Shown: positions 37,948-64,000 of the stretch, piece after piece
How the letters are laid out: each line of letters opens with the position of its first letter
Position numbering within the stretch: position 1 is the stretch's first letter
Origin: Macrocystis pyrifera
Lineage: Eukaryota; Sar; Phaeophyceae; Laminariales; Laminariaceae
Direction of reading: 5' to 3'
Length of the DNA stretch: 64,000 bases
Assembly (NCBI GenBank): GCA_031763025.1
Contig: JASSKH010000001.1
Span: forward strand, 7,745,024 to 7,809,023
Made by a program: the position numbers and the translations under genes
The notes under the pieces: model-generated
Told to the model about the DNA's origin: nothing
Seen by the model: the letters and a program-made list of their open reading frames with translations, nothing else
Database searches by the model: none

Positions 37948-38340
37948 TAGAGAAGCTACTGGTGCCGTCGCGGCATCGCCCGCTCAGTGACCGGCAACAC
38001 GAGGACGAGGACAGCAGTACAGCATGTCATAGCGCATCGCCCATGACGCTCAGCCTGGACTACTTGCAGTTGGTGCGAGACCTCTCGTGGGAAACAGTAT
38101 ACGAACACTTCGTGATACACACCTGTCGGTACGATGGAGCTCGTAGTCGTGACTGCTATTAAAACGACACTCAATGTGGCGGACGCAGCGAACTTTCTTC
38201 TGCGGCAAGTGTTTCTCCAGGGCTCCAGCTGCTCGAACAAAACCCAACGTGCGTGCGACTGCTGCTGTGTTCATTTCTCCCATCTGGTCAACTTATCACC
38301 CCCTTCAGCACACATCCCGACGAGGATAATGGAAAACTCA
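37948..38340 (+). repeat. Left terminal inverted repeat (inner part)
   Basis: 393 bp identical, apart from two bases, to the reverse complement of 63608-64000. Homology stops sharply at 38340, where TGGAAAACTCA is followed by unrelated sequence. The differences fall near 38033 (CATAGCGCATC versus CATAGCCCATC) and 38312 (CAGCACACATC versus CAGCATACATC). Open frames occur on both strands, but I see no domain. Confidence 0.9.
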
Positions 38341-38465
38341 ACTGTTTTAATTTTTAATTTTTAATTTTGAACCGCACACCTTCGCCATCAAACATTCGAC
38401 CCCACTGGCCACTCAATCCTTGCGACATAGAGCACTTGCTGTCACAGTCAACACTCAGCACAAAA

Positions 38466-41400
38466 ATGCCCTCATGTTCCATACAAGGCGGATGTAAAAA
38501 CCAGAACCTCGAGTCCAGCCACCACTGCAAGGTGTGCGGAGAACCTGTACACAACTTGTGCCTCCAGTCCTTGACTGGGGTCCAGGATAGTCCTGCTAGT
38601 GGATGGGTCTGCGGGGCGGGGGGTCGTTGCCGCAAGGAGGCAGTTCCCCCCGCTCCTTCCCACCAAGGGCCGAGCAACGTAACCGCCAATGTTGTTCACT
38701 GCGCCGCTGGTTCGCGTTGTGACCGCAAGGCCACGGAACGCTTAACCGTGCGGCGCGACTGCTGCGGACGCCACAGCCACTTGTTTTGTGTCGCAAAACC
38801 CTGTGAAGCGTGCGAAAGCATGCAAGACGACGAGGAAGAAGAGGACATCGAAACGGGCTGCGCCAAAGGTGAGCCCGATTGACGACAACCTGTTTGTGCT
38901 GCATTTCGTGCTGCGTCGCTTGTTAACCGGGGAGGCCCTCGTTGATGACTTTTGTGTAAGCTGCTTGGTAGAACTGGGATTGCCAATCGCTGTCTGGTCG
39001 TCTATTTCGTGTGCCCGAGACGGGAAAAAAAAATAATACACTCCATTATCAGTACGAACTAAGTAAAATTCAAATTTTAGTAGCCGTTGCTTTTTTCAAA
39101 TATGAAAATGAAAGCTGCGAGATTTGTTTTTGTTTTGTAGCCTTCGTGGATGGGAGGCCTGGTACCTGTACCAATGTTGAAAGTCTTTCGAAGTTAAGAC
39201 ACGCATGCCCGCACACGTATATGCGTTCAGATCCGAGGTTTTCCTTCCTAGTTCCATCGAGGTCGACGCATTCTCCATTTGTTATTCTTCACTACCGAGT
39301 AAGTATTTAGTAGCCGCTGTGTTCATCAAATTTCAAAACGACAGCTTTGAAACCAGTCGAGATGTTCGATTCGTGATGAAAGGGGAGACCTCGTACCGAA
39401 CAATGGATCCCGCGCAAAGACACATGTTTTAACTTTGCAGTAGCCTCAAGCACATCGCAGGTCATGATACGAATAACATCAGACGTACACAACAAGAGCA
39501 ACCGGACGGATTTCCCGCGCGCAAGCGGTGATGTCGTCGAGCACCCGTATCGCTTGCTCTGTCCCATGAACCAAGGAATCATGTGCTTCGCGGCCGAAAT
39601 GTTGTCCTTATCCATTTTAAACATAGGGTTCTACCCGATACATATATCGCTATGTATGCATATTTTAGGTACAGGAAACAGACAGCCGTGGCTGATTCAC
39701 CCGCAAGCAGCGCTTGTGATCGCGATCATTCCGGATCGATGGCCAATTACCTTTCCAGTGACACGAAGAATTGAAGTTTTTTTTGTCGGCCCTTTGGTAA
39801 ATACAATGCATGCTCGCACGCGGATGCGTTACGTGTCCGTGTCTATTGCGTGAAGCACAAGAGCTCTTTGCATTTTGAAGTCGTTAGTTTAGCGCATGCA
39901 ATTCCATGAAGCACCCCTGTCGTACCACTTTTTTTGTATTCAATTGGTGGTTGAGCGTGTAAAGGGTGCGACAGCCTGTCGCGAATCGATGCATCCTGTA
40001 CATCTTAGCTTGTCCTCAATTGTATTGGTGCAATTGTTCCATGCCCTCCGGCGTATCGCTATCGGTTCTTAGCAGGTGAGGCTATTGATGTGGACTCGCA
40101 AAACTCCGGCGCGGGTGTCGATGGCGGGGGCTCTTCTGGTTTGAATGCGCAGGGTGAGTGTAGTGGCTACTTCCGCATGTACTTGATGTTGTTGCACGCC
40201 CCCCAACGCGTAAGGGCTCGAAATGTAGGGTGGGGTGTCTATTATTAGTTTGTAGATTTATCTTTTCGAGGGTGTCTCTGTGTTGATTACACGTTTATTT
40301 TCGGCCAAGTGTGTATTTTGCGCTCAACACCCAAACAAAACCTTATCGTTCCGGGGCGGTGGTAGGTTGTTCACAGTTCCTCCAGGTAGGTGTGGCAACG
40401 CCTGTAGGCACATGGCGGGGCGATGGTATAAAAAAAATGCAGAACCAAGTACCGTAAAATATCACTATACAACGTTTTTTTTTTTATTTTAATTCTCTCG
40501 GACGTGACCCAAATCTACGAGTACTCGAATGCAGACCGTGCCTGTCTGTCCACAGCAACGTTTGGGCCATGTCCCCAAGACATGCCGTGGGTGTGATTGT
40601 CACCCCCCCCCCCCCCCCCCCCCCCCAACTCATTATGAGGGAACGGAGAAGCAGAAGATGGGGTGTAGATGTTGTACGGCAGTAGTAGTGGTGACACCCG
40701 CCATGCTCATGTCCGTTTGACACATGTCAGGTTGTACATTTTACGTGTTCAAATTATGAGTGCGGCACCAGGAAGCACACAAAATCTAGAACGCGTGCGA
40801 AGGATTCGACGGTAAAACCGACCCACCCCGATCGTGCAGCGACACTGACCCTGGCCTCGTGTGTCCTATTGCTGCTGCTGCTGTTTTGGTGCTGGAGCTC
40901 TGATGTAGATATCGAAAATCACTAGTAGTGGAGCCACCTGCTTGGAGAAGCACTCTCTGTTGGGCGTAACATGTCAGGTTTAGATTTGTAGTCTTTGAAT
41001 AATACAAAAGTTAGAGTTCGTAACCAGTAATAACACGGCCAAATCGACGAAGTGTACAAAGTGTTCGACGGATAGGCCGACAAGGCGAGCGTGCAGCGAC
41101 GCTGTGTTTAGCCTCATGTGTTCTACTGATACAGCTGCCGCTGCTGTATCGCTCCTGGAGAAGCTCTGCCGTAGATGTCGTACAATCAGCAGCATAGTGT
41201 TGCCACGCGCTGCTACGATAAGCTTTTTCTGTTGTACTACACATGTCTACCCGTCACAAAACGAACTTCTTAACTCGCTCTGGATGGCATCTTGTAGAAA
41301 TTTGATCAAACTGTACCCATCTGCTCTGGATCGAACACCGGGAAACAAGGGCCCGATCTACGGGGCGGCGGGGGGGGGGGCTGTGCGGCTGTGTAGCCAT

Positions 41401-44400
41401 GCTACCTGTGGGTTGGCTCCTTTGTACGGCGGCCCTTCTGTGATATTTAGACGCGGCTGCACTGACTCGCAGGAGGCGTGCAGAAAAGTCGCTGTTTGTG
41501 TATTCGATTCGCGTTTCGAATTCCAGTCTTGTACTGTTGTAGATTTTGTGGGTTGAGAATCGTTCATTGTACAGGAACCTCTATCAGGTACGGGAACGTA
41601 TTTTGACCATCGACCAATCAGCGCCAACTTTGTTTTAATCTTTTCGATTTCCGAACTTTTTTAGGCCCAAACGTCACGGATACGGGAATACACACGACCT
41701 CGTACGTACGTAGATGTTCGTTCGTGTTGGCTCAGCGCGAGTCTGAACAATCTTTATTCGCCCAGCACGACGCATAACAGATACGACGTCTGTATGTAGC
41801 ATTGAGGTCGCGCCTCATGACCACGAATTACTAGTAAATATCTGGTCATACCAGGTATGTATATCCTCCTGGCCATTCTGGGACCGTTTTATGTGGCAAG
41901 ACACGTACCTATACGATATGTCGTAGCTTTCATGTTAGTGACTATCCCGAACCCTGTGTATTTTTTCCCATATTTATATTTGCTGTCTACAGGTTCTAGA
42001 GGGGCAGCCGGAGGTGTCGTACAAAAGGAGATCCCTGCCCCCTCCACGTCCAAAAAGACCGTAAACAGCAACAAGGGCGCTGTCGCGACTCCGACGCGCG
42101 AATCCGAGAGGATTCGAAACGCCCAAGCCCAAGCGGAGGTGGACGCATCGGCTAAGGCGGTTGTAATCGACTCGGAATCGGCAGGCACCGTCCTCTTTGC
42201 GGCAGTACACGGTATACTGACCGATGTACTCCAGCCCCAGCTCCAAGAAGCCACGAAGGTATGCAAGTAAACATACAACCCATTAATTATCTGTTTTGCA
42301 AAATGTATAATATTGGTTATTTCAGTGTGTAGACCCGCCCCTCATTGTGTACGAATTGCGTCCCGTTCAAGACGAATCGGTGTAGCATTCTTGTTCGATA
42401 CCTGTACAATAGGTATTTTGACATTGACAAAATTGTATCTGGCCTGTCATGAGGTCAAATCGTTACGAATTTTTGCAGCCTAATGAACCTTGAATGCGTG
42501 TTAATCATTCGAGGATTTTTTTTATTTTGCCTCCTTTCGTCCCATTTCGTGGCAATCTCTTTGCCGCTTGTATGATGTCAACATGCGACAGCCACAGAAC
42601 ACCCTAAAATTTGTTCACTTGTTTGCTGCTGTTGTAATGTCCATATCCGACACACATAGAACTTTCCAAGAGGAGGTCCTCGGCAAACGGATATTCCATC
42701 AATTCGCACTAAAATTAGTATGTTCCACGGGCTACTGCGGGTGGCCACAGCACATAGGACAAGATAGTTACAAAGGGGATGTATATGATCCTGTGTGCCC
42801 GGTAACCCTTTGGACATGTTCGACCCCCATAAAAGCGAAACTTCTAAGACTCACGGTTTCGTCAACCAATACGTATGCATTACTTTCCGCACAGGGCGTT
42901 TTGTCTGCCGCGTCGGCCGCAGAGGCATCGATGAAGACCGCGGGTGTCGCGATGAACCGAGCGACTGCTGAGCTGAAGGCGGCTACAGGCGCCGATACGC
43001 GTACTTGCAAGCCCGCGGAGACCAGGAAAGGGGGGTCGCAAAGCGAAGACAAAGAAGGATGAGGTAACATGGCAGCGTCGTACTATTTATTTAGCCCGGA
43101 CAGACTCCGATAAGTGGTGCCTTTTTACCTCGCCCCACTACACGCAAATACGCAGGTGTAGTTTTTGCTGGTTTGTAGTGCCGGCGAGGGGGTGGTGTGT
43201 CTATGCTGCGTAATTGGACGTCTCCGTCTTATCATTGTCCCATGTATCTGTCCTCATGGAAACTTGTGCCTGCTACGGGCGAATACAATGCGGTCGGATG
43301 CCAGGGCGTAAAAGCTGCGTCAACCACCACCATAGCATGACCTATGATGTCACCAAAGTGTGCCTAACGTCAACATTTCGTCTTCGTAACACTTTGTCTT
43401 AAATTTTGGCATGCTGAACTTGGGCGGAAGGGGACATCATCGAGGACCGGGCAAGACGAGGTTGCGGTCGACCTGATGGAAAGCCTTCCCGCCAAGCTCT
43501 CGGCGGAAGTGAAACCATCCTTTCACGCACTGACGGAGTGTTTGAACTCGTCCCAACTTTCGACCGTCACCGTTGTGAGAGATGGAGCCTCCCGTGAGCA
43601 CGCCGTGATGATGGAATCCCTATCTAAAGGCTTGCTCGATCTGAAAGTTTCCGTCCTGCAGGCGACGACTTCACTCCACGAAACCGTCGCTGAAGTACTA
43701 GAAACGTCCAACCGGCACATCAAGGAAATGCGCCACCTGGCGAACACTACGTGAGTCCGCTTCCCTCTGTATGGCTATTCTTGCGTCGGCAGAGAGAGTA
43801 TAAACAGAAACACCATGACGTACTTGAATAGAATAGAGTTCAAGGTGGACGCTGCAGTAACACGCGATACGTGGCCAACGCATACTCATCACCACTCTTC
43901 TTCACCCGCCGTCACCGTTTTCTGTTTGCGTCGTTGCAGCGCTGGCACAACTTCTTCCTCGACTACGTCACACAAGCAGCACAGGAAAAAAGCCCCCAAA
44001 ATCCCCCTTCTCCGGCTACATCGTCCGGGTACGAGTCCTCCTTAACTCCCGAGGATCCACCGCGGCCTCCGGTAGGGTCCAAGAGGCCCAAGAGGAAGAT
44101 CGGCAAAAACGCGCCACGGAAAACGTGAGTGTGTTCCGAATAAATCGTCTGTAGACAACATGACTGTAGAATGTTTGTTTCGTAATTTTCTGTGTTGAAC
44201 GGGGGTGTCGTGCGGAACAAGGGTGATTTGATGGAGGAGACGCCTGATGTCATGTGGATTGCATCGGGGCTCGGTAAGGCTTGCGGTTTTAAGAAGTCGA
44301 ACCTAATATTTACCTTTTACCTACACTTCTTTCATCTCCCAGACAAATGCTTTTAATATTTACATACCCTCCACGTTTCTAATCGGCAACATGATGCGGA

Positions 44401-45288
44401 TCGGCGCCCGTTTGATTTTAATTGCGGGCTTGCGCGGCATTCGTCTGAATTTTAATATGCCTTGAAAACGTTCGCGAACCACAACCACGTACGCGGGGAT
44501 GCACAAACCTCTTTTATGTTGCGCAGTGCACAGGACTTCACGTGTCAAAAGACTGGCCGAGACAATGATGGCGAACGCGGACGAGTTTTTAAGCTAGTCG
44601 TGAAGAAAACGTCCTTCGGTTGGCATTGGGAATGCGAGTACTTCGGTTTTGTTGACGTCCATGCTTGACACGCCGTGGTAAAACACGTCCGAATTCAACA
44701 TTCGTACTGACAAATGCAATCCGTATATGTAAGAGACTGGGCGTTCTACAAAGCGGATATCTTCTTACCCTACGTTGGTAGGTTAGAGTGTCGTCGACAA
44801 ACAATATTAAGAAATGACCATGAAACAACAATCAGGCAACCGACAGACCAATTCCGATGCTGGTGTTTGTCTTTTTTCTATCTACCGCACTGCTGGAAAC
44901 CAGGACGCCTGAACCACTCGCGGCTGTCGACGTGAACACCCCCAACGAAACGAACCTGCTACTCCAACAAACACTGAAGCAGTTCGAGGACACGACGCAG
45001 ATACGAAAGGAACTGCAGCAAACCAAGGCACAACAAGAGCTCCAGAACACCCAGCAGTTCCAACAGTTCCAGCAGCTCCAGCAGCTCCAGCAGCTCCAAC
45101 ATCTACAACAGCTCAAGCAGACACGAGAGCAAATCAGCCAGGCTGGTGTCGGCGTTCCGTCAATGGGCAGTTGGAGCAACATCAGCATGCCGGTTGTTCA
45201 GTCCAACGCGCCTGTGGTGAGGCCCCCACCGCCGCCTATAGCGAGCCCCCCTCCCCCGCCGTTCGCGTACAATCCTTTCCAATCGTAG
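38466..45288 (+). CDS. Cys/His-rich zinc-finger and Q-rich coiled-coil protein, six exons (model)
   Basis: Proposed exons: 38466-38868, 41993-42258, 42895-43063, 43431-43750, 43858-44124, 44904-45288. Exon 1 begins MPSCSIQGGC and shows C4, C10, H20, C21, C24, H29 and C32 spaced like a small zinc-binding module, then a second Cys-rich patch and an acidic end (DDEEEEDIETG). Later exons give alanine-rich and amphipathic helices, basic nuclear-localisation-like clusters (GSKRPKRKIGKNAPRK), a glutamine-rich coiled coil (QQFQQFQQLQQLQQLQ) and a proline-rich tail. Donor and acceptor phases agree at all joins (1/1, 0/0, 2/2, 2/2), except that a six-G run at 43030-43035 shifts exon 3 by one base; five Gs would keep it open. 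The product is probably a nuclear DNA-binding or adaptor protein of the transposon, about 600 residues. The family is not recognised. An alternative exon at 39141-39298 also has good splice sites. Confidence 0.6.
39141..39298 (+). CDS. Alternative or cryptic exon of the zinc-finger gene
   Basis: After TTGTTTTGTAG, the frame AFVDGRPGTCTNVESLSKLR continues exon 1 in phase 1 and runs open for 52 codons to a perfect GTAAGT donor. Its phase 0 end does not fit the exon at 41993, so using it would give a different, shorter product or need further exons near 39463-39770, where short coding-like frames also occur. No domain is visible. Confidence 0.35.
40230..41845 (+). repeat. Repeat family E copy nested in intron 1 of the zinc-finger gene
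   Basis: It carries the family blocks GCCAAGTGTGTATTTTGCGC, CCCCAAGACATGCCGTGGG, CTGGCCTCGTGTGTCCTA (40851) and a second unit near 41110. It ends with CGCCCAGCACGACGC and CGCGCCTCATGACCACGAAT at 41760-41836. A run of 24 C residues at 40603-40626 lies inside. It sits wholly within the proposed intron 38869-41992. Confidence 0.75.
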
Positions 45289-47499: not shown

Positions 47500-48180
47500 T
47501 ATTAATTATAAATTGTCGACTTGCTCCCGATGTTTTGTCTTTCGCTTCTTTCCGTACACACTTATTTTATAAATTTTGAAATACGTCAGCTGTGAGTTCG
47601 ACTGATTAAATAGTTGATACTCAACTTTGCAAGCTGCGTAATACGCCTCGTCTATATTCCATTTTTACCTTATTTTACAAGTATTGTGATAAACCGAGCG
47701 CGCGTATTCTACATGTGATTCCTTGTCAAAGATATAGGCCAGCGGCCCCCCTGGATGCTGCCCGGGTCAACAGGACAATTTTAACTAATATTTCTGCGCA
47801 CTGATACTGTATAACCCGAACAAGGGATATTGGTATGATGTGCAACATGTTGAAACCTTTGCGTTTCACAAATATTTATAGATTGATTGGATGTTGTTGA
47901 TTTGGTTCTAAGTGTGAATAAATATTTCGGAGATGAGCTGCTGCTGTTTTTGCTACTGCTGTTTTTGTTACTTTTGTTTTTTAAGTAGTATGGTTCTAAG
48001 TGTGAATAATGTTGCTGTTCTCGCTGCTGCTGTTTTTGCTACTTCTGTTGTTTTAATGTCTAGATATTATTTATTTATACTATGTTAGCAGTGTAAGTTG
48101 ACAGGTATAGATTGCCAGAGGCGCTCGACTACCGAGACCCTGTCTTGTCTCTGGAATGAATGGTATACACCCTCAGCTCA
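47500..48180. other. AT-rich spacer with short CTGCTGTTTTTGCTACT repeats
   Basis: GGTTCTAAGTGTGAATAA and (G)CTGCTGTTTTTG(C/T)TACT motifs repeat at 47905-48055. No coding signal. Confidence 0.4.
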
Positions 48181-48184
48181 CACG

Positions 48185-51100
48185 TAGTAGCACTCTGGTT
48201 GCATTTGTTTCGGAACAAACAGCGTTAAAGCCAGGTAATGGACACGGAGCGGGAGGCCGCCCTACCCAGCGTGCCGAAATGCATGATTGTTGTTAATAGG
48301 AATGAATAGCCTGAGTCGAAAAATGCACGACTAATAGCGACCTCTAATAGGCTGGTGCCTTGATGATGAGTGAAAGGGTATTATATACTCTCGTCAGATT
48401 ATATTTCTCCTTATCCCGACATGAAAAGGGGATTCGAGAATCGGCAGGCCAACACAACCACCGAGCCTATCCGCGGTGTATCGCAAACAGAGAGGGTGAA
48501 CAAAAGTCTTGTCCATGCCAGATACGATGCGCCCGTCTCATGCTGTAAGGCAGTACTTGGGTAGCTGACGACTACTGCTGTTTATGTAGAAGGCCCTCAT
48601 CGTCGGCTCACGCTTGCCCACAGAGTTGAGTTACGTACTCGTGTATTTTTTAGTATTCCTCGTACTTTATTTGTTTGGTCATCGTTTCCGGTTGTAACCT
48701 GATGGTGCACTTTTGGATTGGACTGCCAGGTAACGTTGACAAGTAATAAAGATGTGAAAAGGCGGCAATGATATTTCGCACTGTAGGGCCGTTCAGACGG
48801 TGCACAACCACAGGGCACACGTAGCGGCGATCTCATAGCGTTTGCTTCGGAACAAAGGCCGAATAAACAATAAAACGGACGAAGTAGCGGGAGGCCGCCA
48901 CGCTCCGCGAGCCGAAATGTATGCAAGGCATGGCTGTTATTGATCGGAACGAATAGTCTGATACCATAAATGCCTTCTCCCGGTATGAGAAGGGGATTCG
49001 AGACCCGGCAGGCCAAGACAACCACCAAGCCTATCTCAAATTGAGAGGGTGTACAAAAGTGTAGTTCAAGCGAAAAACGATGAACCCGCCTCATTCTTTA
49101 AGGCAGTACTTGGGTACACGACGACTGCTGCTGCTGTTGTCGGCGACCGTCATCGTGGGCTCACGCTTGCCCGCAGTTGGTTTACGTACTCGTGTATACC
49201 GTCCTATCCCTAGTACTGCCGTATTAGTTCGCTCATCGTTTCAGCTTGTAACTTTCTGATGCACTTTTGGATTGGACTGCCAGGCGATGTCGACAACTAA
49301 CGGATGACCAAAGGCGGCAATGACACGTCGCCCTGTCTGGCCGTTCCGACGTTGCACTATCACAGTGCACACGTGGTGGAAACCTCACGACATTCGCTTC
49401 GGAACAAAGCGCGAAAAACACAGAAAATGGACACGGAGCGGGAGGCCGCCCTGCTACGCGTGCTGGAATGTCAACAAAGCGTGGTTGTTGTTAAGAGGAA
49501 TGAATAGCCTGAGTCCAAAATTGCACCACCAATAGCGATCTCTAATTGGCTGGTGCCATGATGATGAGTGCAAGGATATTATACACGCGTCAGATGATAT
49601 TTCTCCTTCCCGACATGAAAAGGGGATTCGAGACTCGGCAGGCCGACACAAACACCGAGCCTACCCGCGGTGTATCGCAAACAGATAGGGTGAACAAAAG
49701 TCTAGTCCGTGCCAGACACGACGCGCCCGTCTCATGCTGTAAGGCAGTACTTGGGTAGCTGACGACTACAGCTGTTTGTGTCAAAGGCCCCCATGGCGGG
49801 CTCACGCTCGCCCACAGTTGAGTTACGTACTCGTGTATTTTGTAGTACCCTCGTACTTTACTTGTTTGGTCAACGTTTCCGGTTGTAACCTGATGATGCA
49901 CTTTTGGATTGGACTGCCAGGCAATGTAGACAAGTAATAAAGACGAGAAAAGGCGACAATGACATTTCGCCCTGTATGGCCGTTCAGACGGTGCACACCC
50001 ACAGGGCACACGTCGCGGCGATCTCATAACGTTTGCTTCGGAACAGAACGCGAATAAACAACAAAACGGACGAAGCAGCGGGAGGCCGCCCCGCTCCACG
50101 AGCCGAAATGTATACAAGGCATGGCTATTGTCGATAGGAACGAATAGCCTGAGACCAGAAATGCACAAACAATAATAGCGTCTTTACGATGAATGAAAGG
50201 GTGTCATCTCGCGAGATGATATTACTCCTTCTCCCGGTTTGAGAAGGGGATTCGAGACCCGGCAGGCCAAGACAACCACCGAGCCTAGCCGCGGTGTGTC
50301 TCGAATAGACAGGGTGTGCAAAAGTATAGTCCAAGCAAGATACGATGCACCCGCCTCATTCTGTAAGGCAGTACTTGGGTACACGACGACTGCTACTGCT
50401 GTTGTCGGCGACCGTCATCGTGGGCTCACGCTTGCCCGCAGTTGATTTACGTACTCGTGTATACTGTCCTATTATTGGTACTGCTGTATTAGTTTGCTCA
50501 TGGTTTCCGCTTGTAAATGTCTGATGCACTTTGGATTGGACTGCCAGGCGATGTCGACAACTAAAGGATGAGAGAAGACGGCAAAGACATTTCGCCCTGA
50601 ATGCACGTTCCGACCGTGCACACCCACAGGGCCCATGTTGTGGCAATCTCATAACCAAGCGCGAGTAAGGGAGAGAATGGACAATGTTGCCGGAGGCCGC
50701 CCTGCTCCGCGTTGTGCAATGTACACAAGCTCAAAGGCATGTCTGTTATTGATCGGAATGAGTAGCCTGAGCCTAAAAATGCACTACCAATAGCGACCTA
50801 TAATTGGCTGGCGCCTTGATGATCTGGGAAGGGGTATTCACTCGTCAGATGACATGCCTTCTTCTCCCGGCATGAAAAAGGGATTCGTGACTCGGCAGGC
50901 CAACACAACCACCGAGCCTACCCACGGTGTGTAACAAACAGGGAGGGTGGACAAAAGTCTACTCCATGTCTGGTACGATGCACCCGTCTTACGCTGTCAG
51001 GTAGTACTTGGGTTGCTGTAGACTGCTGCTGCTGTTGTCCCCGACCGTCGTCGTTGGCTCACGGTTGCCTGCGAGTGTGTGACGTACTCGTGTGTTTTTG

Positions 51101-51450
51101 GTCCTTCCTCGTACTTTATTTATTTCTTCATCGTTTCCGCTTGTAACATTCTGGTGATGCACTTTTGGATTGGACTGCCAGGCGACTTCGGCAACTAGAG
51201 GATGTCAAAACACGGCGATGGCATGTCACCCTGTCTGGTCCTTCCGGCGGTGCACACACACTGCGCACACTTTGCAGATTGATCGTGTGGTCATCTCTGG
51301 AGCAAACAGCAGTCACAAAGATAAATAAAGCAGGGCTACAACGGAAATTGCCCTTCAGTGCTGTGCAGAGACGTGCTTGGCCGAGTGAACGAATAGCCCG
51401 TACACAATTTTTTTGGACGATATCGCTTGACCTCTGATTGGCTGCCGTAA
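48185..51450 (+). repeat. Higher-order tandem array, units 0.55-0.65 kb in alternating A/B types
   Basis: The anchor TTTTGGATTGGACTGCCAGG recurs at about 48711, 49265, 49912, 50530 (shortened) and 51163. A second anchor (GGGATTCGAGACCCGGCAGG) recurs near 48430, 48995, 49625, 50250 and 50880. Units 1, 3 and 5 share CATGAAAA(A/G)GGATTCG and ACAAAAGTCTA. Units 2 and 4 share TGAGAAGGGGATTCGAGACC and the GTACACGACGACTGCT block. So the array is a dimer repeat of about 1.2-1.26 kb. It stops about 100 bp before the nuclease start codon. Non-coding. Confidence 0.85.
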
Positions 51451-51551: not shown

Positions 51552-54500
51552 ATGGGAGTGAGTGGTCTTTTAGGACGGCTCAAGCCGATCGCGTCTGACC
51601 GTGTTGACCTGACCGATGGTGCGGGCACTATTATATACGACGGGCACTTTAGCATGCATCGATCGGCATCAAACGGCGCTATAGCGGTGGAGTTTGCGCT
51701 CAACGACAATGTTAGAGCGTTGGTGTCGGGAATGCAGCCTGAAATGAAAGCGTTGACGGAAGCTGGGTGGAACGTTGTGGTTGTCTTCGACGGCGACACA
51801 CCCCCGAGCAAGGCGCGTACTTCCAACTCTCGGTCTGGGGACCGAGCGAAAGCTCTCGACGCATGCGGGGCTCTGCAGACAGAATCACCGATCGATCGGC
51901 GGGAGTTGGAAAGGCACGCCAAGCGGGCGGTCAAGTTCACTTCTGTTACAGTAGCGAAAGTATCAAAGCTGCTCAAGCATTCGCTTGGAGCGGAATGCAT
52001 TACGGCACCCTTCGAAGCCGACCCCCAACTCAAAGTCATGGAAGACCTCTACTCTACACAGGGGCAGCGGTGTTTTGTGCGAGCGAACGCCTCTGACCTG
52101 GTTGTGCTGGGTGTACGATCCTTACTCTGGGATGTCAAGCAGGAGGCAGGCGGTCTATTCGGGCAATGCATCCTGCAGACGCACATCTTACACCCGCAGG
52201 CGGATGTCTTTGCTTATTCCTGCACTGCACATGACTTCTTGCGCCAGTTGCATGGTGTGCAGAACCGCGACGACGTTGGGCGGACGTGGTCGAGTGACGA
52301 GGAAGCCGTGATGACCAGGCTGCGGAATTACGCTTGTGTTGCCGGGAACGACTACACCAAGTTCAAAGACGTCGGGCCCATGCGCGCCATGGACATCGCG
52401 ATGCCTGAAGGGCCAGTACTCAACACCGTCGGAATTGCCCAGGCGCTGGTGGAGTCGACATCATCACTGGAAATCGGGGTTGTATTGCCGCAGTTGAAGA
52501 CCTCGGTAGACATGTTCTGCCATCCTATCGTATGGGATCCGCTGACTGGAGCACAACGGCACCTGTCTGGGGTGGTCTCGTCTACTGGCATCACAACGAA
52601 CACAGGTGCACGACGTGTTGGTACAGAGTGTTGATTTATGTACTAGTCCTTGTGGGTTCAGTAATTTGCTGTGATCTCCGGCACCTGGTATCCGGTTATA
52701 ACACCCGAATAAGCATATTCGCCTCGCCTATGACCCACTTACAACACATACGTCTTTGGTGGCCTACCTCATACTGCACTACTGTTGCGACTGGATGCCG
52801 TCGGATGAGGCCTGGTCAACCGCCCCCTCAGAGTCGACATGGAAGACTTTACGTCGATTGTGTAGGGTTCACTGGTGGACTGCTGTAGACCCCACTAAAT
52901 TGAACAAATGATGACCGTCGTTGGCGGGCATGTGTGTCGCGCTTGGTGTACACTAGGACCTGCTATTTGATACGCAAGGTATATTGTTACGTATTAAATG
53001 TACGGAGTAAGCGGCTTGAAAGTCACATAAATGAAAGTCATGGTGGATCAACCCCAGCAACATACTCTTGCCACAATGACTTGTGTGATAGACTCACGAT
53101 GTTGGCGCGGTCCCCCTGTGAACCCCTTGTCTTACTCATGCAGGTACCCTCGCGTCGCCCATGGAGGCGAGACTGATAGCAGATCAACTAATTTGTCCTA
53201 ACACGCGCAAGCCATGGAGTAATTCGGTCGGCGTGGGCACGGAGGGCTTGCCGGGTGGGCTCTTGTCGTCTGACCCCAGACGAAACGCGAGACAGGGGAG
53301 GAAACGGGCGCCCCCCCTCGGGGGCGCAACCGGAAACAACTATAAGCGGACCGGCGGGTTTGGGAGCCTCCCTGACCCCGACATGGACTACTCAACGTGG
53401 ACGGTTGATGCACTGCGCGAATTTTTATCGGTCAGTGACAACGCTGTGAAGGTATTACTTACAGTATGCGTAAAACAAATACGGAGGACGAAATGCATGC
53501 AGGCCGTGTGCGTGAGGTATTTATGGCATGTGCTCGTATAGCCTACTTGAACGGAAACTATTAGTAGATATACGGTTCATGTCGCTGGGGTTAGTACTCT
53601 ACATGGACCGAAGGCAATCATAATGCTAGGTTAGGGCCGGTTCTAACGGGGGCGAGGAAGCAACTTGAAAACTAAATAAAACGAACGGACCCTACCTTTG
53701 TCTCGAATGGGTGGCGTTTAGGTGCTTGGAGATGTCGGGCGTGAGCAAGTTCCTAAAGGCTCAACTGGTGACCCTGGCAAAGACTTGCGTGGAAGTGGTG
53801 CGTGAGGCTGGTCTCGAAAACAGCCCTATAGCCTTTCGCCACCCAGTGCTTCCTACTCCGTCGACCCAGCAACCAGTAACCTTTCCGGGACCGGAAACGG
53901 CGTGGCTTGAGTGGGAAACTCTTCGGGGGAAGCTGCCGGAGTTTGGCGACAACATCATCATCAGATGGCTCACAGAAGAAGGTTCGCTCAAAGGATCGAC
54001 AGGTCGTGTGCTCTACCGGGGGTTGCAACGAGTGCTGGATTTTGGGGCTCTTGGCGGGCTCAACGGTGTTCCGTGCGGCGCCAATGGCGGTCTGCTGTGG
54101 TTGCGATTCATGTGAGTTGCCCGAACACGCTGAGAATAGCGATAGGCAAAGCTGAAGTTTCTAGACCATTGCAGGTATTTTCGATTCGTACATTGCACGC
54201 CTCCTTTGTACCCCAGCCTCCACACCGTTTTTTTTATCTGGCCCCGACTATTATTATGGTTTATTGGTCAGGGCAATATGGACAATTTAGGTATGTCTGT
54301 ATACGTGCGGATGGATCCCTGGAAGGGGGCCTCTGCAAGGGAATGGCAGCTTCGCCGGGCTTCTCACACATTTTTAGGCAAACAATAACCCGTTGGTGTT
54401 TCCAGGTTTCCGGCATCGGTTATTGTGTCTATGAACAACATCGATGGCATACTTGGTGATCGAGCGCTTCGGAACCAAAAAGAAGAGGAAATATTTTCGC

Positions 54501-57500
54501 ATGGTGGGGTGCTTAGGGTGTGTGCTCGTGGTTGGTGCTTCCAGGACTAGGTAAAAAACACAACCTAAATTGCCCAGGGGGGAAGAGGAATTCAAACGAC
54601 GTGGACCTGCGTTCAAGCTTTCCCACTTGTCACAGCAAGATTCGAGCATCGGGCAGTCGACCGCCGCGTGTTCCACCTCCTTTCGCTCCGACCCGCCTCC
54701 CGCTCCTCCATCATTATGACACTATCTCCACCGTCGCTGTCCTCCGAGCCGCGGCCCAGCTCGAGGTTGCGTGTCTGCGTTTTCGTGTGCAACGTGAAGT
54801 GCTTCTATTTATCGAGCTGCTAGTGCCCACTTCGCCTCTCCTGCTGCAATTACAGCAGTAGTACTTGTAGCCCCATCACAACCAACCGCCGACTCGAGGA
54901 GGAGGAGGTGCGCCCGGTTGCCCCAACGCGTAGGCGAGTGGTCGTCCGCCCCGCGTACCTTGTACGCCATCACCGCCCTCCTCACCGTCACGCAGCGTGA
55001 GGATGCTAGGTCGATTGTCTTCATTTTTTTCAACAGATATATGATGCATGCTCCGCCTACCCGCCTGCTGAAATTGCCGAAGCTACTCTGTACTTGCTCG
55101 CCGCCAAAATCACGAATCAAACGACGATTGGTTCGAGGAGATAGCACGCCTTGCCGCCCTAAGCTATGGCGGCGAGTCAGTGTCGTTCCCCGGCTGCTTG
55201 TGTGAGGGTACAGACATCCTTTACTACCTGTGCTCTGTGCCATTACCATTACCCAGGGCAGCTTCGTCGCGCAGGGTAAAACCTTGTTTTGCGGCCCGTA
55301 ACCCTGAGCATACAAGCTGGATTGGCCCAGAGGCTGATACATTGGCCCGGAGGCTGAAAACGAGGTTACGCGGGAAAATCCACGCGGTTTATCCGGATTT
55401 TCACATGAAATTGTGACACGTTTGAATCAGTAGTATTGCAATAGTAATGGCACGTACACCTCTTATGTTTTTCTTTTTTTGTGTTCACGAGTTAGGACGA
55501 TATTTGTAAATGTAGAAATGTATGTTTGGCGACAACGGGATGTAAAAAGGATACTAATAAAGAGGCGCAGTTGCAATTACATATGCCTTACTACTTTGAA
55601 TGGCGTGTCCAAATTTCTGACCAAAATTCGCAACAACCGCGTGGATACACCCGTATTTCTTTGGTGATCGGGATTGCAGGTGACGTTGATTAATATATAC
55701 CACCCCCACATTGTAGGATACCACCTCCTACGCTGTTTAAGTCTTGACGTCTCCCAACCAAGAGCAAAGACAGCACCGACAAGGGTGGCACTGGGGAGAT
55801 GTTGTTCGTGCTGAACCCTCCCATATCGTGTCCATTGGCGATACAGCATAAGTAGTAGAAGCACCATATTCTGTATTGAGAAGCGGCATATTCTGTCACT
55901 TATGGCATGGGTGAAGTTGGGCGTCACCGACGGTATTTATTGACGAGCGAAATAATGTCTTCTGCGTTATACACAGCTACTTCACACGTTATACTCTCAA
56001 GTGATACAAACACCACGTACTCAATAACGTACTCTCTGCATGCACCACATACTAGAAAATTAGGGCACACCGAAACGTTACCTATGCGCCCACCCAGCTG
56101 ACCGTCAGGCCCAGAATATTGCTTGTTAAGGAAACCAAGTTCCATGTCCGGAATGTTGCGGTGAACCGGGGATTGACGTCTTCTGCCACTAGTGTCTGGC
56201 TGTGGGAGGGCGGCTGGCAGCCGTGCTGTCGCACTCGTGCATTCCGATGCGAGCTGGGATCACGTGTGTCTCTGTTGTTCTGCTGCTGATGTGTTGCTGC
56301 TATTGCTGTGTTTTCGCCAATATTATCTGTGATTCCGCCTCAAATAAAAACGGATTGTATTTGAGTTTGTCATAAGCCTCTACATGAAGCGCGGTGGGTT
56401 GAGTTGATTTTATATGCGTCTGCTATGAGTTGAAGAAATTATCGAAGGCGACGTCAGAGAGCACGTGCAAACACGCTGTGACTGGCTGATTTCACCGATA
56501 TGCTGTCTTCCTCCCGACTACTCGGCAATGCATAGTTATGACTTGAAGAATGAATGTGAGTCCCTGGGCCAATCTAAATCGTATGGCAAAAACAAATCCA
56601 ATCAGCAAAAAAAAAAAACAGCCGTCAACGTCTTTCACGCGGCGAGATTTCGACAAACCCTGACCCTGAGCGTTTTTTTTTTTTTTTTTTTTTTTTTGCC
56701 GAAACGCTCAATTATCACTTGGAATGCATATTACACGTCCATGTTTGTTTATGGCCTTCTGTACATATACGTTGTCGCGCGTAAACAATCACAGGGCAAG
56801 TGGGTCCATGAGATCCGTGCAGTACGAAGTCACCGCTGCGTTGCACGTGGAGAGGGTCAGGGAAATAGACAACATAGATGGTGAAGAGGAAGGTCAAGAG
56901 GTCGCGACGTGTCGCTACGTGGCCACGAGGGTTGTACGTGCTTCTTGCCAATGCCAGTCGGGGTCGGGGGGCGGGTGCCATCACGTGTGTCAGTTATTGC
57001 AACTGACGCGCTTACTACAGCTGACGGAGGTGGAGCTAAGTAATTGGAACCCGCTGTCGCCGACGAGCGTCGCGTGCCAGTGGGTTCTTAACCACTGTGG
57101 GGCAGGGCGTGGCAAGGGGAACGACATCATGCACGACAAGCCGATGGAGAAAATCGTTAAGAGCATGAGGACGTTGAGGGACCCGAAAACCCACCGGTTA
57201 TCAGGGGGTCCAGACGAGGCCGTCCTTACGAGGGGGGTAGTGGCGATGGATCGTGCTGATTTGTACAACTCGCATCCCGCATTGGGCATGTGGTCCGCCG
57301 CCAAAAGTGTATTTGACGAGGGGGCAACTATCGACCGTTCGCAATTGGAAACCTTGCATGCTTTCGTGGACGGGGAGAGGAAGGAATACGAACGCACGAC
57401 GAAGGAAGGAGATAAGTTGGACAGTGCTTTTTCTGATGTATGCATTGATGTATTCCCGCCAATAGTACGTTGATGTCCGACTCGTCTTAGGGTACGTGAG

Positions 57501-59471
57501 GATGGCGTATACTCTACATCGACAAGTTTATTTTTGAGGGTGCATTCCAATAGGTTGGCATTTTTCTTGGAATTGCTTACTCGTACAGCAGAAATTTCAC
57601 CGAGAATACAAACATTGCATTTCTTTGGGCAAACAACGCTTGCAATCTAATAATTTCCTTATTTTCGGAGGCGACGTACTGGTAATCTAGTACCCTTTCC
57701 TCGTCAATATTTTAGGGCCTTTGCTTCTGGTTTTTCGAGACGCCCGTAGGCCAGGGCCAGTTATGGTATATATATTATATATATACATTTGTGTATGCTC
57801 CTCGTCTGAACGCCCAACCTTCGGTCTGATCTGTTGCGGATAGTTTTGTTGATGGTCCATTCAACAAAACGGTAGTGTCGGCAAAACGCAACCTGGTGCA
57901 CTCACGACACGCCCTGCGCGCTGAGAGCGTCCTTGTGTTTTTGATGAAGCTGTAATGTGTTTGCGTTCATATTGTTTTGAGTCGCGACTCCTTAGGCGGG
58001 GGCCCTTGAGAAGTATACCGTGGTTGTGTCCCTGGAGCAGGTCCGTGTGGTTTAAAGAGGTATGGTTTGCCAGGGCAAGTTGCTGCCGCTCCCTTGCTGT
58101 AGTGCACGCGATTTACTGAAATATTCACGTTCTATACATGTTGACGCTTTTCTTCAATGTTATTGGTGACCGATGGATAAACAAAGGGGAACAAAAAGCT
58201 AACAACATTATCCCATCAATGCGCACACAACCTGCGAGATTTGCAAGTTGTCCGCGGGAACCCTTTTCGCACCGTCGTTGATAATGACACCCTTCGCCTT
58301 CAGGGTTTGGCGTAGGTGAAATTATCGATACAGGAGTTGAGACCAGGCAGGTGCCTCGTATTGCATGGTGTGCCTAGGTTCGTGGTCCAACTGTGTGTCA
58401 TTGTAAATGGTGGGGGGGGTGGCATAGCACGGTGGCCTTAGTACCCTTCCGCAGGGTACTGCTGTGGTACGGTGCATGCGAAGTATTCACACGTTTTTTT
58501 CTCATCGTTTAGCTTGTTTGATGAGAGAGGGCTAGACCTATATCTCACGTAGAATGTTCCACATGACACGGCGTCGTCGATCGAAAAAGTCGCGTCGCAA
58601 TAGACAATGTATGAATGGACTGTTAGACAGGGAGCACGTCATTTTTTTACACCGGGCACTTTACGGATGGATCTGGGTGGGATTGTCGGAACATGAGGTG
58701 CGGCTAACCGGGAAGGTCGTATACAAATTTGACCAGCGTGTACACCATGGCGAAGGAAAGGTTTCTTGCTGGTTTGGCGCACATATAATAACACGATGAG
58801 CTGGTTCTACTGTATGTGGAATACCCCGAAATAATGGACCATCCTGAAAGCAGCTTGAAATGTCCACTACGTCGGCACAGATTTAATTTCTCGCTGACCG
58901 CCACTAGGAAACATGGGGTGACAAGGACAGTTTTTTCTTTTGTTTAGACCACAGCGGCGAAAGCGTGTCCCGACAAACAACGGGCCACGGCGGCGAAAGC
59001 GTTCCCCGAGAACCAACGGTCCATGTCTCCGGTCGGTACCACGCCCCCGCGTTTGCGAGGGAAGCAGGTATTTTCGTTGTTTTGTTTAAGGTCAATCGCA
59101 AATATTCAAAGATGGGTAGGCGCAGGGCCAATATTGTGCGGTAGGTGAAGTACAAACCTCCACAAACACTGGGAATCACACTGCCCCAAAACAAACTACC
59201 TGTCTTGGCTGCGCAAAAATTCACAATGGTCACGCAATCTTTGACAGAATGGTTCGTATCCAAATGTGGCACTGTACACGACTTTCGTGAGCCCCTGCCG
59301 CCAAGTCAGCGAACGAGGTGTAGTGTTCCTGCGTTTCTTTTCTCGGCGGGTTCTTCTAAATTACAGGCACAAGCACCGGTCGAAACCCAACGAAATGACA
59401 ACTTTTCGGGCTGCCTCATACAAAACAGAAGAACACGGCGTCGTCCACGTGTTCGAAAGCGCTCGCAATAG
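51552..59471 (+). CDS. XPG/Exo1-type nuclease fused to SAP and SWIM domains, six exons (model)
   Basis: Proposed exons 51552-52605, 53144-53451, 53732-54111, 56795-57464, 58948-59067 and 59367-59471. Together they make 879 codons with matching phases (1, 0, 2, 0, 0) and no internal stop. The ATG at 51552 gives MGVSGLLGRLKPI, the standard XPG-family start; an upstream in-frame ATG at 51501 is less likely. Nuclease residues visible: D30 (IIYDGHF), D80 (VVVVFDGDTPPSKA), E155/D157 (APFEADPQL), D182 (NASDLV) and D267 (AGNDY); the Asp usually two before D182 is Ala180. Residues about 436-475 (TWTVDALREFL, then MSGVSKFLKAQLVTLAK) fit a SAP DNA-binding domain. C632-x-C634-x7-C642-x-H644 (ASCQCQSG, GGCHHVCQLL) fits a SWIM zinc finger. 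The tail is Arg-rich (RRTRRRPRVRKRSQ). Probably a nuclear DNA-processing nuclease for transposition. Confidence 0.75.
54112..56794. other. Long intron 3 of the nuclease gene, with uncertain open frames
   Basis: The intron is 2.7 kb in the simplest model. Coding-like segments occur at 54840-55050 (CARLPQRVGEWSSAPRTLYA) and 55038-55145, where ATTTTTTTCAACAG precedes IYDACSAYPPAEIAEATLYL. They might be skipped exons or an inserted fragment. A run of 25 T residues at 56673-56697 lies upstream of the next exon. Confidence 0.35.
57465..58947. other. Intron 4 of the nuclease gene
   Basis: Mostly AT-rich. A plus-strand frame at 58554-58799 starts MFHMTRRRRSKKSRRNRQ and could be an alternative exon or chance. 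I looked for a YqaJ nuclease domain here on both strands and saw none. Confidence 0.35.
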
Positions 59472-60755
59472 ACGTTTGCAACATTGGCCTAATTCTAACA
59501 AGAAACAGCGCGGGCTTGCAAGATTTCGTCGAAAATAGAACTCAAGTTATCTGGCCAACTCATTAATAACAACATAAACCACGCCGTCGTTGAAGGGTTG
59601 ACAGGCGCTCACAGTAGACGTGTGCCACATTTCAAGCACTATAAGATTTACAGGGGGGGGGGGGGCTTGCAAGCGTTCGTTCAAATTGACCAGTGGATTG
59701 AACGAAAGGAGAGGGTGTGGGGGGAGGGGGCGGCCCGGGGCGCTATCATCCGTGACTATTGATACGATAGTCGACAGGAAGTACAGTCCCCCTTCGCAAG
59801 TAAAACAAATACGCCCCCCCCCTCCCCTACCCCCCCCCCCCTCCCCCTTCACGCCCGGGAAGGGAACTAGAGTGCAATCCGGAGCGAACGCCGGGGATGC
59901 TTCACACATGTCATTCGTACACGTTTGGGTACTGTGTAATCGTACACTGTGGTGCACGAAAGGAATACATTGTAGGCAGAGGAGATGCGTTCAATCTATT
60001 TATATAAACAACGTAGAATTTAATGATGGAACGAATACGTGCTGTACAATATTGGTGTGTGTCGACCAGCACGTATTTGCATGGTGACGACCACATCAGA
60101 CACAGCCCAGGATTAGAACGTCACTATGAAGTGGTACGCTGCAACAACAGTTACAGCCTAATGGCAAGTGGTACACATGTCGTACCAAACAAAATTATGT
60201 TAATATTTATACGGCAAGATTTCCACCCTATCGCCCGAACTCCGCCTTGCTACGTTGACACACGACGAGCCACCAACATCATTTCATTAAAAGTGGGGGT
60301 GCGGGGGTCGACACACGCTGCTGAACACCAGAGTCTAACGCTCTGCGCGTGAACACTACAGGAATCGTGATAATTACGCGTCACAATGGCGACAAATAGA
60401 CACGCTCTCCGCTCGCCAAGTTTGGCTTCGTTGCCCATTCTTTCGACGGGGAATCCGAGTACATGGCCGCGGGGTTGGGGGGGGGGGGTCGGCCGAGGGG
60501 GAGGGGAGGGGGCCAGTGTGGGATTAGAGGGGGGAACGGCGGCGGCAGGAACCTAGAGGGGGCGTCCGCGGGCGATCGGATGGCGCCCGGAAGCAGCCCG
60601 TTTCAATATCATATACTCAAATACACCAGGCCCAAATGTGAAGGTACAAGTGGACATCCCAATAACAACCACGTAGCGGCACTACGTAATACAAGCGTTC
60701 TTGATTCATGCACACCTAAACAGTCAGAGGACCGAACCCCATGTGCACTGGTTTA
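59472..60755. other. Spacer between convergent nuclease and transposase genes
   Basis: It contains a run of 13 G (59653-59665), C-rich runs at 59813-59850 and a G-rich tract at 60470-60545. A 109-codon frame at 60023-60352 has no recognisable motif. No terminator-like structure is certain. Confidence 0.4.
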
Positions 60756-61643
60756 CTACTTGGTCGCGAATGGTTGATGCGTCATGTTCACGAGGCTTCC
60801 GCAAATATCGTAGCATGAACTAATGACGTCAAACTGCTGCGAGTCAAACTTCCTGTCCAGGATGGTCCACTGCTTCATGGCCCCGATCGCTCGTTCTACG
60901 TGAATGCGTAGGTTTGCAACATCTCGAGTAACAGTGGCGTCTTCTCTCCTGAACTGCTCCTCGTCTTTGCGCTTACTGGGGGGTGCGACGTAGTGGATGT
61001 TGTTCTTCAATAACAACAGTGCTATGGCGTTGAATCCTCTGTCTGAAATTACATGAATGCCCTTGCAAGGTAGCCCCATTTCAACTAACCTGTCAATTAT
61101 TCCAGACTCTTTCACCAAGTTCTCATCACTCACGCGCCCGGCGAACGCTTTGGATATAAAACAGATAGACCCCCCTGGCGTAATGCCAATCAATACTTTA
61201 CATGTTGACTTCCCCTTGTAGTTTGACCATGTGGCCCAAGCGGCGTCCGTCTGCCACACTTTGTCTACGGGGGTCTCTGTGGCGTCAAGGACTATGGCTA
61301 CCCTGGAAAGGCCCTTCTCAACAAAGTTTGGCGGTGCCGTCACCTCTATTTCGTCCAGAAGCGGTAGACGCACCATAGGTCGAAGGGCCCCACGCAAAAA
61401 ATTAATCCAGGTAGTGAATGCCCTCCCCCCAGTCGACTCGCTTACGCCGAATCGTGTCGACGTAACCCGTAACGACGACGCCGTCCGCAGCACGAACGGG
61501 GCCATAAAGAGGCCATTCAACCCTCCTAGTTTCTTCTTGCGTTGTTGCGGCCTAGTTCCATCGACCTTCACGCCCCCCAGCATTGTGTCAAACCCGCGGT
61601 AGGGTACCAGATTGTCCGCGGCCCCCCCATGGTTGACGAACGC
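60756..61643 (-). CDS. DDE_Tnp_4 transposase, catalytic exon
   Basis: After an acceptor (GCGGTTATAG before 61643) the frame is open for 295 codons to TAG at 60758-60756. An amino-terminal helix-turn-helix-like part contains VTSTRFGVSESTGGRAFTTW. The catalytic core follows with D120 (AIVLDATETPV), D201 (HVISDRGFNAI) and E250 (LRIHVERAIGAMK), plus the family landmarks WSNYKGKSTCKVLIGITPGG and GRVSDENLVKESG. This is the RNase H-like DDE domain of PIF/Harbinger and ISL2EU relatives, which excises and inserts the element at its terminal repeats. The triad is complete, so catalytic competence is possible. It is preceded on the same strand by the THAP-like exon at 63472-62940, and it converges with the nuclease gene. 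Confidence 0.92.
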   Translation of the reverse strand, partial: AFVNHGGAADNLVPYRGFDTMLGGVKVDGTRPQQRKKKLGGLNGLFMAPFVLRTASSLRVTSTRFGVSESTGGRAFTTWINFLRGALRPMVRLPLLDEIEVTAPPNFVEKGLSRVAIVLDATETPVDKVWQTDAAWATWSNYKGKSTCKVLIGITPGGSICFISKAFAGRVSDENLVKESGIIDRLVEMGLPCKGIHVISDRGFNAIALLLLKNNIHYVAPPSKRKDEEQFRREDATVTRDVANLRIHVERAIGAMKQWTILDRKFDSQQFDVISSCYDICGSLVNMTHQPFATK

Positions 61644-62939
61644 CTATAACCGCTACGGTGACACAAACAATGAAGAAGGGCAGATTCATGAAGGGACACA
61701 AGGGGAAGTGTACCAATCAGTCAAACGACGCACAAACAACACAAAAAAAACGGATGCATGCAATAGGAAGACAAGGGGACGTGCAACAAACAGAAAAGGG
61801 CGACATTTTATGACAGATATATGCCCTAACCCTACCCAATTGTACATCGCAGGCATTACAAAACGTATTAACATGTGACAGCTATACCGCATTGGTCGAT
61901 ACCCTAAAGCGTGGTCGAGTAGGGCACGTTGTACGAGCAGTACGTACATACGTTGTGGTATCTAGATACTTCATGTACATACATAATGTTACTGGTACAT
62001 ATGCTGTATACTACTCTACTTGATGCTACGTACTATATACTACACTGTTTCACAGCGCAAACGTTTGTCAATGAGATGCGCGGTTGGGCGCGGTTTCAAC
62101 GATCCGCACTGTCGTCATCACCAGTGTCGTTCCCCTCACATAAAGATATTATCGCCGCACCGCGAGTACGATAAGCACTTGCCATGAACCGCACCGTGAA
62201 GCACCTCGCCGTTCGAACGCTGACGATCCACAACGGACGGCACCGTTGGACTAAGTTCTACCAGAGTAAGTAACTGACTACGGCGCGGATACGTTGCGGT
62301 GAAGATGATAGCAGCCCTTGATTAACGACATCGAACCACATGAAACAGCACTAAACACTAAACACGGCGAACACCGTTTCGCGCGCATCGCACAGCGCCC
62401 ACCTGCGTCGAACCGCAATGCATCTACTGGGACGGCATTGTACTGAACCATAAGGTTCCTAAAAAAACAGCAAACCAGCAGCCGCGCCGGGATATCATAA
62501 TTTTAATTTGAAGTCGGTGTTACACACTAAAACTCTAAAGCGCTTTCGATATTTTGTTGTCGGCGCAAGTGAATCGTACGTGCGTAATCGTGCCCCATAC
62601 TAACAGGACAATATAATATCGCACGCTATTTGTGGGGGTCCCTGGTACACCTGCGATTTACTTCGTTACTGGCGTGTGTAGTTGTGTCTGTCGTATCCAG
62701 CGTGTACGACGAAGGCCTAGCTAGCATCTCCGAGTTCGATTAATAGTGCATTTGTTTGCGGTACATACATCAATCGACAACAGTGCATACTTGTACATAC
62801 TTGTACTGAAATTTGAGTGGCGCCATGTGTCGGCGGTCGATTGGTACAAATAAACAAAAGAATAAACGACCATCTGTGGGTATAATACTGATGTGGATGA
62901 CATCCAAACAAAAAGCCAAGTCGCGCCGTGTACACTCAC
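61644..62939. other. Intronic region of the transposase gene
   Basis: The linking exon should lie here. A plus-strand frame from ATG 62184 (MNRTVKHLAVRTLTIHNGRH) ends at a GTAAGT and may be chance. The opposite strand of the same stretch is also open. The rest has no signal. Confidence 0.35.
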
Positions 62940-63472
62940 CTCTTTGCTGTAACGTCGGACAATCCGTCAAGGATGTTGAAGTCAACTACATTCCTTGTAC
63001 GAGACTGCACCCCCTCCTCCTTCACGGCCTTGGCGCGTGCACTCTCTTCCAACTCCTCAACTCTGCCCTGAAGCTGCTGGCATTTGATGTCAACGTCCCG
63101 CCTCATGTTGATTGCCTCCAACAATTTTGCGCGAAGACATTTGTTCTCGGCCTGGGCTCTCAGCAACAGCACAAGCGCTCCTTTGGCTTGCTCCTCTATC
63201 TGTGAGTTACTCTGCGAGGGGCTTGCATCAGGTGCGGGTCGCACGACAACAGTAGCGCATATCCCAGTCCCTTCAATGCTTCCCACAAGGTTGTCGGCGG
63301 TGAAGTGTGCCAAAGATATCCTCGCGTCCTTCGTGAGGCATGGCTCGCCATCTCGTCCAAGCACAGTAAGCCATTCCTCTTGTTTGCTTGCGGGCACTCT
63401 GACAGTAGCTTCTCCACCGCTGGCGTGGCAGAATGGCAACCTACAGATGCAACGATGCTTACTGCGATGCAT
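62940..63472 (-). CDS. THAP-like zinc finger and coiled coil, first exon of the transposase gene
   Basis: From ATG 63472 to a perfect GTGAGT donor at 62939 there are 177 codons, ending in phase 2. MHRSKHRCICRLPFC, then EEWLTVLGR and RISLAHFTADNLV, follow the order of a THAP DNA-binding domain (C-x-C, conserved W, HF). The Cys usually just before the HF pair appears as Ser, so one zinc ligand may be missing. Residues about 100-165 form a heptad-like coiled coil (RVEELEESARAKAVKEE). It ends NILDGLSDVTAKR. A short exon of phase 2 to 0 must link it to the DDE exon at 61643. I did not find it in 61644-62938. Confidence 0.7.
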
Positions 63473-63607
63473 GGTACAAGAGCAACTCGTTGTGGTTTGG
63501 TACACCAGGCCTAACCAAAAGGATAATTGTCGCTAACCAGGTACACAATTTGATTATGTAAGATATCACGGCCACAAAATATATTTCCGGCCAAAGGGAT
63601 AATTTTG

Positions 63608-64000
63608 TGAGTTTTCCATTATCCTCGTCGGGATGTATGCTGAAGGGGGTGATAAGTTGACCAGATGGGAGAAATGAACACAGCAGCAGTCGCACGCACG
63701 TTGGGTTTTGTTCGAGCAGCTGGAGCCCTGGAGAAACACTTGCCGCAGAAGAAAGTTCGCTGCGTCCGCCACATTGAGTGTCGTTTTAATAGCAGTCACG
63801 ACTACGAGCTCCATCGTACCGACAGGTGTGTATCACGAAGTGTTCGTATACTGTTTCCCACGAGAGGTCTCGCACCAACTGCAAGTAGTCCAGGCTGAGC
63901 GTCATGGGCGATGGGCTATGACATGCTGTACTGCTGTCCTCGTCCTCGTGTTGCCGGTCACTGAGCGGGCGATGCCGCGACGGCACCAGTAGCTTCTCTA
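63608..64000 (-). repeat. Right terminal inverted repeat (inner part, continues outside the window)
   Basis: Reverse complement of 37948-38340 with two mismatches and no gaps. Homology begins sharply at 63608 and is still intact at the last base of the window, so the full repeat is longer than 393 bp. Confidence 0.9.

Follow-up and report, generated by a model that had tools for sequence, protein, structure and literature searches.

ISL2EU transposons, as characterized in the survey by Han et al. (2015; PMC4482050), are about 4.8 kb long, are bounded by terminal inverted repeats (TIRs) of 6-259 bp, carry a YqaJ exonuclease as their second gene and were found in that survey in animals only. 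The giant elements covered by the brown-algal survey PMC12477816 belong to KDZ, EnSpm and Sola-1, and the main text of that work does not use the terms ISL2EU and XPG. Here we describe a 26,923-bp DNA transposon from the giant kelp Macrocystis pyrifera, which probably belongs to an ISL2EU-like lineage of the PIF/Harbinger-ISL2EU-Spy (PHIS) superfamily that was recently active in this alga. The element lies in a stretch of 64,000 nt from the forward strand of contig JASSKH010000001.1 (positions 7,745,024-7,809,023), called the window in the following; coordinates are those of the window, and L031 denotes the locus which continues past its right edge.

Two inverted arms at positions 37948-38340 and 63608-64000 (393 nt) differ at two positions (99.49% identity) and are spaced 25,267 nt apart, just as an initial annotation of the window had described them (two differences, 25.3 kb). 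The complete terminal repeat is longer than these 393 bp; the window edge truncates the right arm, and the 393 bp are only the inner part of the transposon end. The full element extends from 37515 to L031:437; it occupies 37515-64000 of the window, and its final 437 bp are located outside. Since the true end by sequence is AT|AGACC, the TIR is 826 bp long, and the element termini read AGACC...GGTCT. The left TIR (37515-38340, plus strand) starts with AGACCACTTGCAATA, and this end is common to copies in unrelated flanks; the right TIR (minus strand) has its inner 393 bp at 63608-64000 and continues into L031:1-437. In five other copies BLAST similarity to the window ends at 37511-37513 in eight of nine ends and at 37503 in the ninth, so that the repeat stops sharply at unrelated flanks in the manner of transposon termini. 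With its size, sharp ends and common interior the element bears out the proposal of a giant cut-and-paste-type transposon of at least 26 kb.

A search for further copies, as proposed in the initial annotation, was carried out with the arm in the M. pyrifera genome (537,376,219 bases, 223 contigs) and gave matches at 31 places. These include nine inward-facing close TIR pairs with 93-100% identity and spans of 25.8-36 kb, namely the window copy C189, C202, C201, C220, C216, C222, C126, C195 and C192; in the C192 pair the arm matches cover just 351 and 285 genome bases, compared to 393. One old TIR pair (C203) is found at 72-76%, and the remaining 11 arm matches are singles or fragments. Locus L024 holds an old copy of the TIR (78%), the inner end of which is in direct contact with a second ATAGACC terminus, so that it looks like a junction of two ends. 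The old copies L020 and L022, on different contigs, are truncated alike in the TIR (from position 356) and have diverged almost equally; they perhaps represent one duplicated locus.

Five other copies were read, four of them from end to end and C222 as 22.8 kb of interior from one end, with its other end read from a short locus. Their interiors follow the window copy at approximately 97-99% with small gaps over 22.8-26.5 kb of aligned sequence each (partial in C222), which confirms the shared interior. Mutual divergence of the five copies is 0.35-0.81% (compared sites, gaps excluded), and divergence of the window copy from them is 1.62-1.91%. The two TIRs within one copy differ by 1-10 substitutions per approximately 820 sites in the six copies comparable at both ends. 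These comparisons point to an element which was recently amplified or active in giant kelp.

The ends of the element read AT|AGACCACTTGCAATA. AT precedes AGACC in 17 of 18 separate ends and AC in one, the count being based on a tolerant match with up to six errors, which more diverged ends escape. For the list of preceding bases three of 21 ends were excluded (L011 as part of a duplicated flank, L012 and L024 as matches of internal position), resulting in the same number of 18. The base before the junction AT is A in 10 of the 18 (p 0.007) and A or T in 16 (p 0.0009), compared with the window composition; the target of ISL2EU is A|AT|T. The sequence to the left of the window copy belongs to a dispersed repeat (40 of 3288 candidates scored), and in three element-free paralogues the target reads [C/G]AGG[T/C] AT GTATGTGCAA. 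AT is present at the junction in all three, in line with the prediction of an AT duplication for the bases after the left junction; at one empty-target site AT is expected by chance at about 1 in 16. The AT at 37513-37514 of the left junction is therefore listed as a probable 2-bp target duplication, on the basis of the 17 ends and the three paralogues. In the six copies for which both flanks are available, the two sides of the element never have 3 bp in common, with 2-bp coincidences in C202 and C222. Neither Pangu-type ANT nor PIF/Harbinger-type TWA duplications of 3 bp occur in these six copies. Spy elements insert at AAA|TTT and make no duplication, and not one of the 18 flanks has a terminal AAA. 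Of the "3-bp or other" target duplication anticipated earlier, the 3-bp form is absent, and a 2-bp AT feature is found at the target.

The transposase open reading frame (ORF) matches DDE_Tnp_4 in Pfam with an E-value of 1.7e-31, in agreement with the initial annotation; the joined protein reaches 1.2e-32 and also matches HTH_Tnp_4. The predicted protein has 486 amino acids from three putative exons on the minus strand. Exon 1 (62940-63472) contains a Cys/His-rich N-terminus and a coiled region, is 36% identical to P0025 from Pylaiella and keeps its frame in all six copies; exon 2 spans 62428-62458; exon 3 (60756-61652) carries both Pfam domains. Among 312 relatives found, 120 were listed, and the window transposase together with 68 sequences chosen from this list formed a tree of 69 rows. 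In this midpoint-rooted tree, which holds no PIF/Harbinger reference, 47 rows, the kelp sequence among them, are on one side, where the rows with a named organism are all brown-algal (two Undaria, one Pylaiella, one Ectocarpus), and the other 22 include 14 THAP proteins. Transposase families of about 50% identity are located at C199:12110849, C166:32589 and C195:4890218, among other places. By sequence, the transposase groups with brown-algal proteins, and its next relatives include THAP-DDE proteins of the ISL2EU type.

A DDE transposase of the DDE_Tnp_4 type is a character of PHIS and is present here. Pfam scans of in-element ORFs and exons did not detect YqaJ, and those of in-element ORFs did not detect a Myb/SANT second ORF as in PIF/Harbinger. 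Because YqaJ is a defining feature of ISL2EU, the element is classed as an ISL2EU-like giant within PHIS and not as ISL2EU proper; of the earlier assignment to the PIF/Harbinger-ISL2EU group the ISL2EU-like part stands and membership in PIF/Harbinger proper does not. With ISL2EU, as described in PMC4482050, the element shares the DDE_Tnp_4/HTH transposase, two genes including an exonuclease and AT at the insertion site. It differs from that description in its size (26.9 kb versus about 4.8 kb, five to six times the usual length), in TIRs of 826 bp starting with AG instead of 6-259 bp usually starting with GG, in an Exo1/XPG-type nuclease in place of YqaJ, in the lack of a recognizable THAP domain and in its host, a brown alga instead of an animal. 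With the kelp giant, the known range of the ISL2EU group widens to larger elements, longer TIRs and a new host. With the Harbinger elements described from Ectocarpus in PMC12477816 it has the brown-algal host and a tail-to-tail layout of two genes in common, whereas those elements make 3-bp duplications of ANT or TNA. The algal KDZ, EnSpm and Sola-1 giants of the same survey resemble it in length (15-30 kb), accessory genes and decaying transposases, but have transposases of other superfamilies.

The second gene is multi-exon, is convergent with the transposase gene and is located on the plus strand. Its exon 1 (51552-52605) matches XPG_N with an E-value of 9.9e-05 and XPG_I weakly (Pfam), and comparison of the homologue P0002 with human Exo1 gave 1.8e-12. 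An AlphaFold model of the window exon 1 with 17 homologues reached a predicted local distance difference test score (pLDDT) of 90.6 and a predicted template modelling score (pTM) of 0.89; its best 15 matches in the PDB are all Exo1 over the whole length, with template modelling (TM) scores of 0.71-0.77 in the top ten. According to the model the domain is of the Exo1 fold (Exo1/XPG-type). The 17 homologous proteins are 33-73% identical and include a named Undaria protein; the Undaria gene model P0007 extends into sequence matching exon 2 (53144-53430, 46% identity, splice sites by eye) and exon 3 (53714-53965, 65% identity). Exon 3, which may extend further, shows a SAP-like motif by eye, for which Pfam gave no support. 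A conserved SWIM-like exon on the plus strand (56862-57473, pattern CxCx7CxH), also without a Pfam match, is 62% identical to P0138, its only match, and may belong to the nuclease gene as a further downstream exon. The YqaJ proteins of animal ISL2EU elements also carry SAP- and SWIM-like modules. In the six copies nuclease exon 1 shows eight synonymous and five replacement changes (normalized ratio 0.23, one-sided p 0.009), which indicates that the protein has been kept.

The nuclease homologue P0009 and the transposase relative P0034 come from the same source and each have 8,471 bp as the longest contig; P0034 is placed in a different subclade of the tree from the kelp row. Both genes on one contig of 8,471 bp would suggest an old association of nuclease and transposase. 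It is rather unlikely, even if the best of the alternatives, that the nuclease is unrelated cargo, acquired a single time and without a function in transposition. Accessory genes are frequent in the giant elements treated in PMC12477816, which agrees with such an origin; the 17 homologues of 33-73% identity, including the named Undaria protein, the probable presence of both genes on the 8,471-bp contig of another lineage, the convergent layout of the two genes, and the presence of an exonuclease in the second gene of ISL2EU (PMC4482050) speak against it.

Tentatively, and at somewhat less than even confidence, we propose that brown algae hold an ISL2EU-like lineage of their own, in which an Exo1/XPG-fold nuclease with attached SAP-like and SWIM-like modules has taken the place of YqaJ, and in which a 5'-to-3' exonuclease is conserved for transposition or break repair. 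Academ transposons carry an XPG-type nuclease as well, together with a transposase of an unrelated superfamily; no precedent linking XPG to ISL2EU was present in the searched literature library. For the kelp element itself, in its probable assignment to an ISL2EU-like lineage, the transposase would cut at AGACC and insert the element at AT, doubling the AT. The nuclease, by its fold a 5'-to-3' resecting enzyme, would trim the element ends or the excision breaks and fill the role presumed for YqaJ in ISL2EU, and the long TIRs would favor repair by strand exchange. Under the proposal of a separate brown-algal lineage, a conserved exonuclease would aid a 27-kb element with long TIRs in moving and in copying itself by gap repair. 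Should the exchange of the 5' exonuclease type prove general, it would indicate that end resection genuinely belongs to the transposition pathway.

Several observations weigh against the assignment to an active ISL2EU-like lineage with its own nuclease. The transposase frame is broken in four of the six copies, by frameshifts in C202, C220 and C222 and, in the window copy, by a TAG stop as third codon of exon 3, and among the copies the exon-3 ORF shows no signal of purifying selection (3 synonymous and 13 replacement changes, ratio 1.52). No THAP domain was matched by Pfam in the joined transposase, the Cys/His pattern of the N-terminus was recognized by eye, and the AlphaFold model of this part is poor (pLDDT 47.5). 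The exon models of the element's genes are predictions, and the link between P0009 and P0034 comes from the equal figures of 8,471 bp only. The spans of the C222, C126 and C192 pairs (34.6-36 kb) exceed the 26.9 kb of the element, and recent activity is deduced from copy comparison. Finally, an AT duplication and an AT-ended element inserting without duplication both fit the ends seen, and no clean-copy empty site spanning the junction was present within the sequence of the copy loci examined.

The broken frames and the missing purifying signal would suit a non-autonomous giant which is mobilized in trans by enzymes from another source, with its transposase and nuclease as decaying passengers, and similar decay is described for Ectocarpus giants in PMC12477816. 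We regard this as unlikely, a little more so than the cargo origin of the nuclease. The 486-amino-acid frame is uninterrupted in two of the six copies (C201, C216), five further close copies (two in C192, one each in C126, C200 and C195) have no stop within the exon-3 match, and nuclease exon 1 is conserved. The window copy itself is degenerate as judged from its letters: besides the transposase stop it has lost the aspartate of the ANDSD motif (ANASD, D>A), which is kept in the 16 homologue rows covering the motif and in the five other copies, and the acceptor AG of nuclease exon 3, which is present in five copies.

An integrated virus or a Polinton-like element with long terminal repeats would likewise account for the size, the long TIRs and an insertion that duplicates little or nothing of the target, an origin that we consider very improbable. 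A genuine DDE transposase is present, no capsid, polymerase or packaging-type domain was detected in 20 ORF and exon queries and eight in-element ORFs of the window copy, where introns could hide domains, and a scan of viral contigs with P0001, a homologue of the nuclease, yielded no confirmed relative.

The inverted repeat of the window copy overshoots the element by approximately 785 bp (36730-37512), and this part is duplicated flank and not transposon. The inverted copy of the left flank is found right of the element, from L031:440 to about 1225; it has no substitutions and differs by two insertions, one of 1 bp and one of 2 bp, both within simple repeats. After at most three unassigned bases the target repeat resumes its original course (ATGTATGTGCAATAATG), the original flank being picked up at the cleavage point of the element. 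A large palindrome or segmental duplication with arms 25 kb apart by chance, a possibility raised in the initial annotation and seemingly suited by the 785 bp of extra repeat, has next to no probability and was rejected, as the five other copies terminate at one common position with unrelated sequence beyond it, their similarity to the window stopping at the element end, and as the extra stretch is flanking repeat DNA after which the original right-hand continuation resumes.

The inverted flank copy is probably a repair scar. The right end of the window copy was probably broken and then repaired by synthesis that used the left TIR as template and ran on into the left flank for approximately 785 bp, before the original right flank was rejoined at the cleavage point or within 3 bp of it. 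The window copy thus appears to preserve a precise repair scar at one end. The six copies compared on both sides have no inverted flank copy of this kind next to either end. On the side away from the transposon, the duplicated flank ends at a small inverted-repeat element (36640-36757) resembling a miniature inverted-repeat transposable element (MITE), and the far junction of the scar lies inside it.

Just inside the left TIR, a Cys-rich PHD-like ORF of 138 amino acids (38466-38882, plus strand) matches PHD with an E-value of 0.032, below the cut-off. It is open in four of the five copies covering it and frameshifted in C216. The initial annotation had counted two multi-exon genes in addition to the transposase; one is the nuclease gene, which it had left unnamed, and this ORF looks single-exon. 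The nuclease gene is preceded, at 48174-51285 on the plus strand, by a series of about five direct repeats, each approximately 620 bp long and diverged from the others (repeat families D1, D2, D4-D7 and D12).

Outside the element, a second set of inverted arms is located at 19438-20202 and 33398-34158, with segments of 75-221 nt that are 89-99% alike and 13-14.5 kb apart, possibly representing a long-TIR element of approximately 14.7 kb. Fragments of Exostosin GT47-type proteins are encoded on the minus strand at 2605-3180 and 30295-31179, and a tandem duplication of 134 bp with 98% identity is found at 31546-31813.

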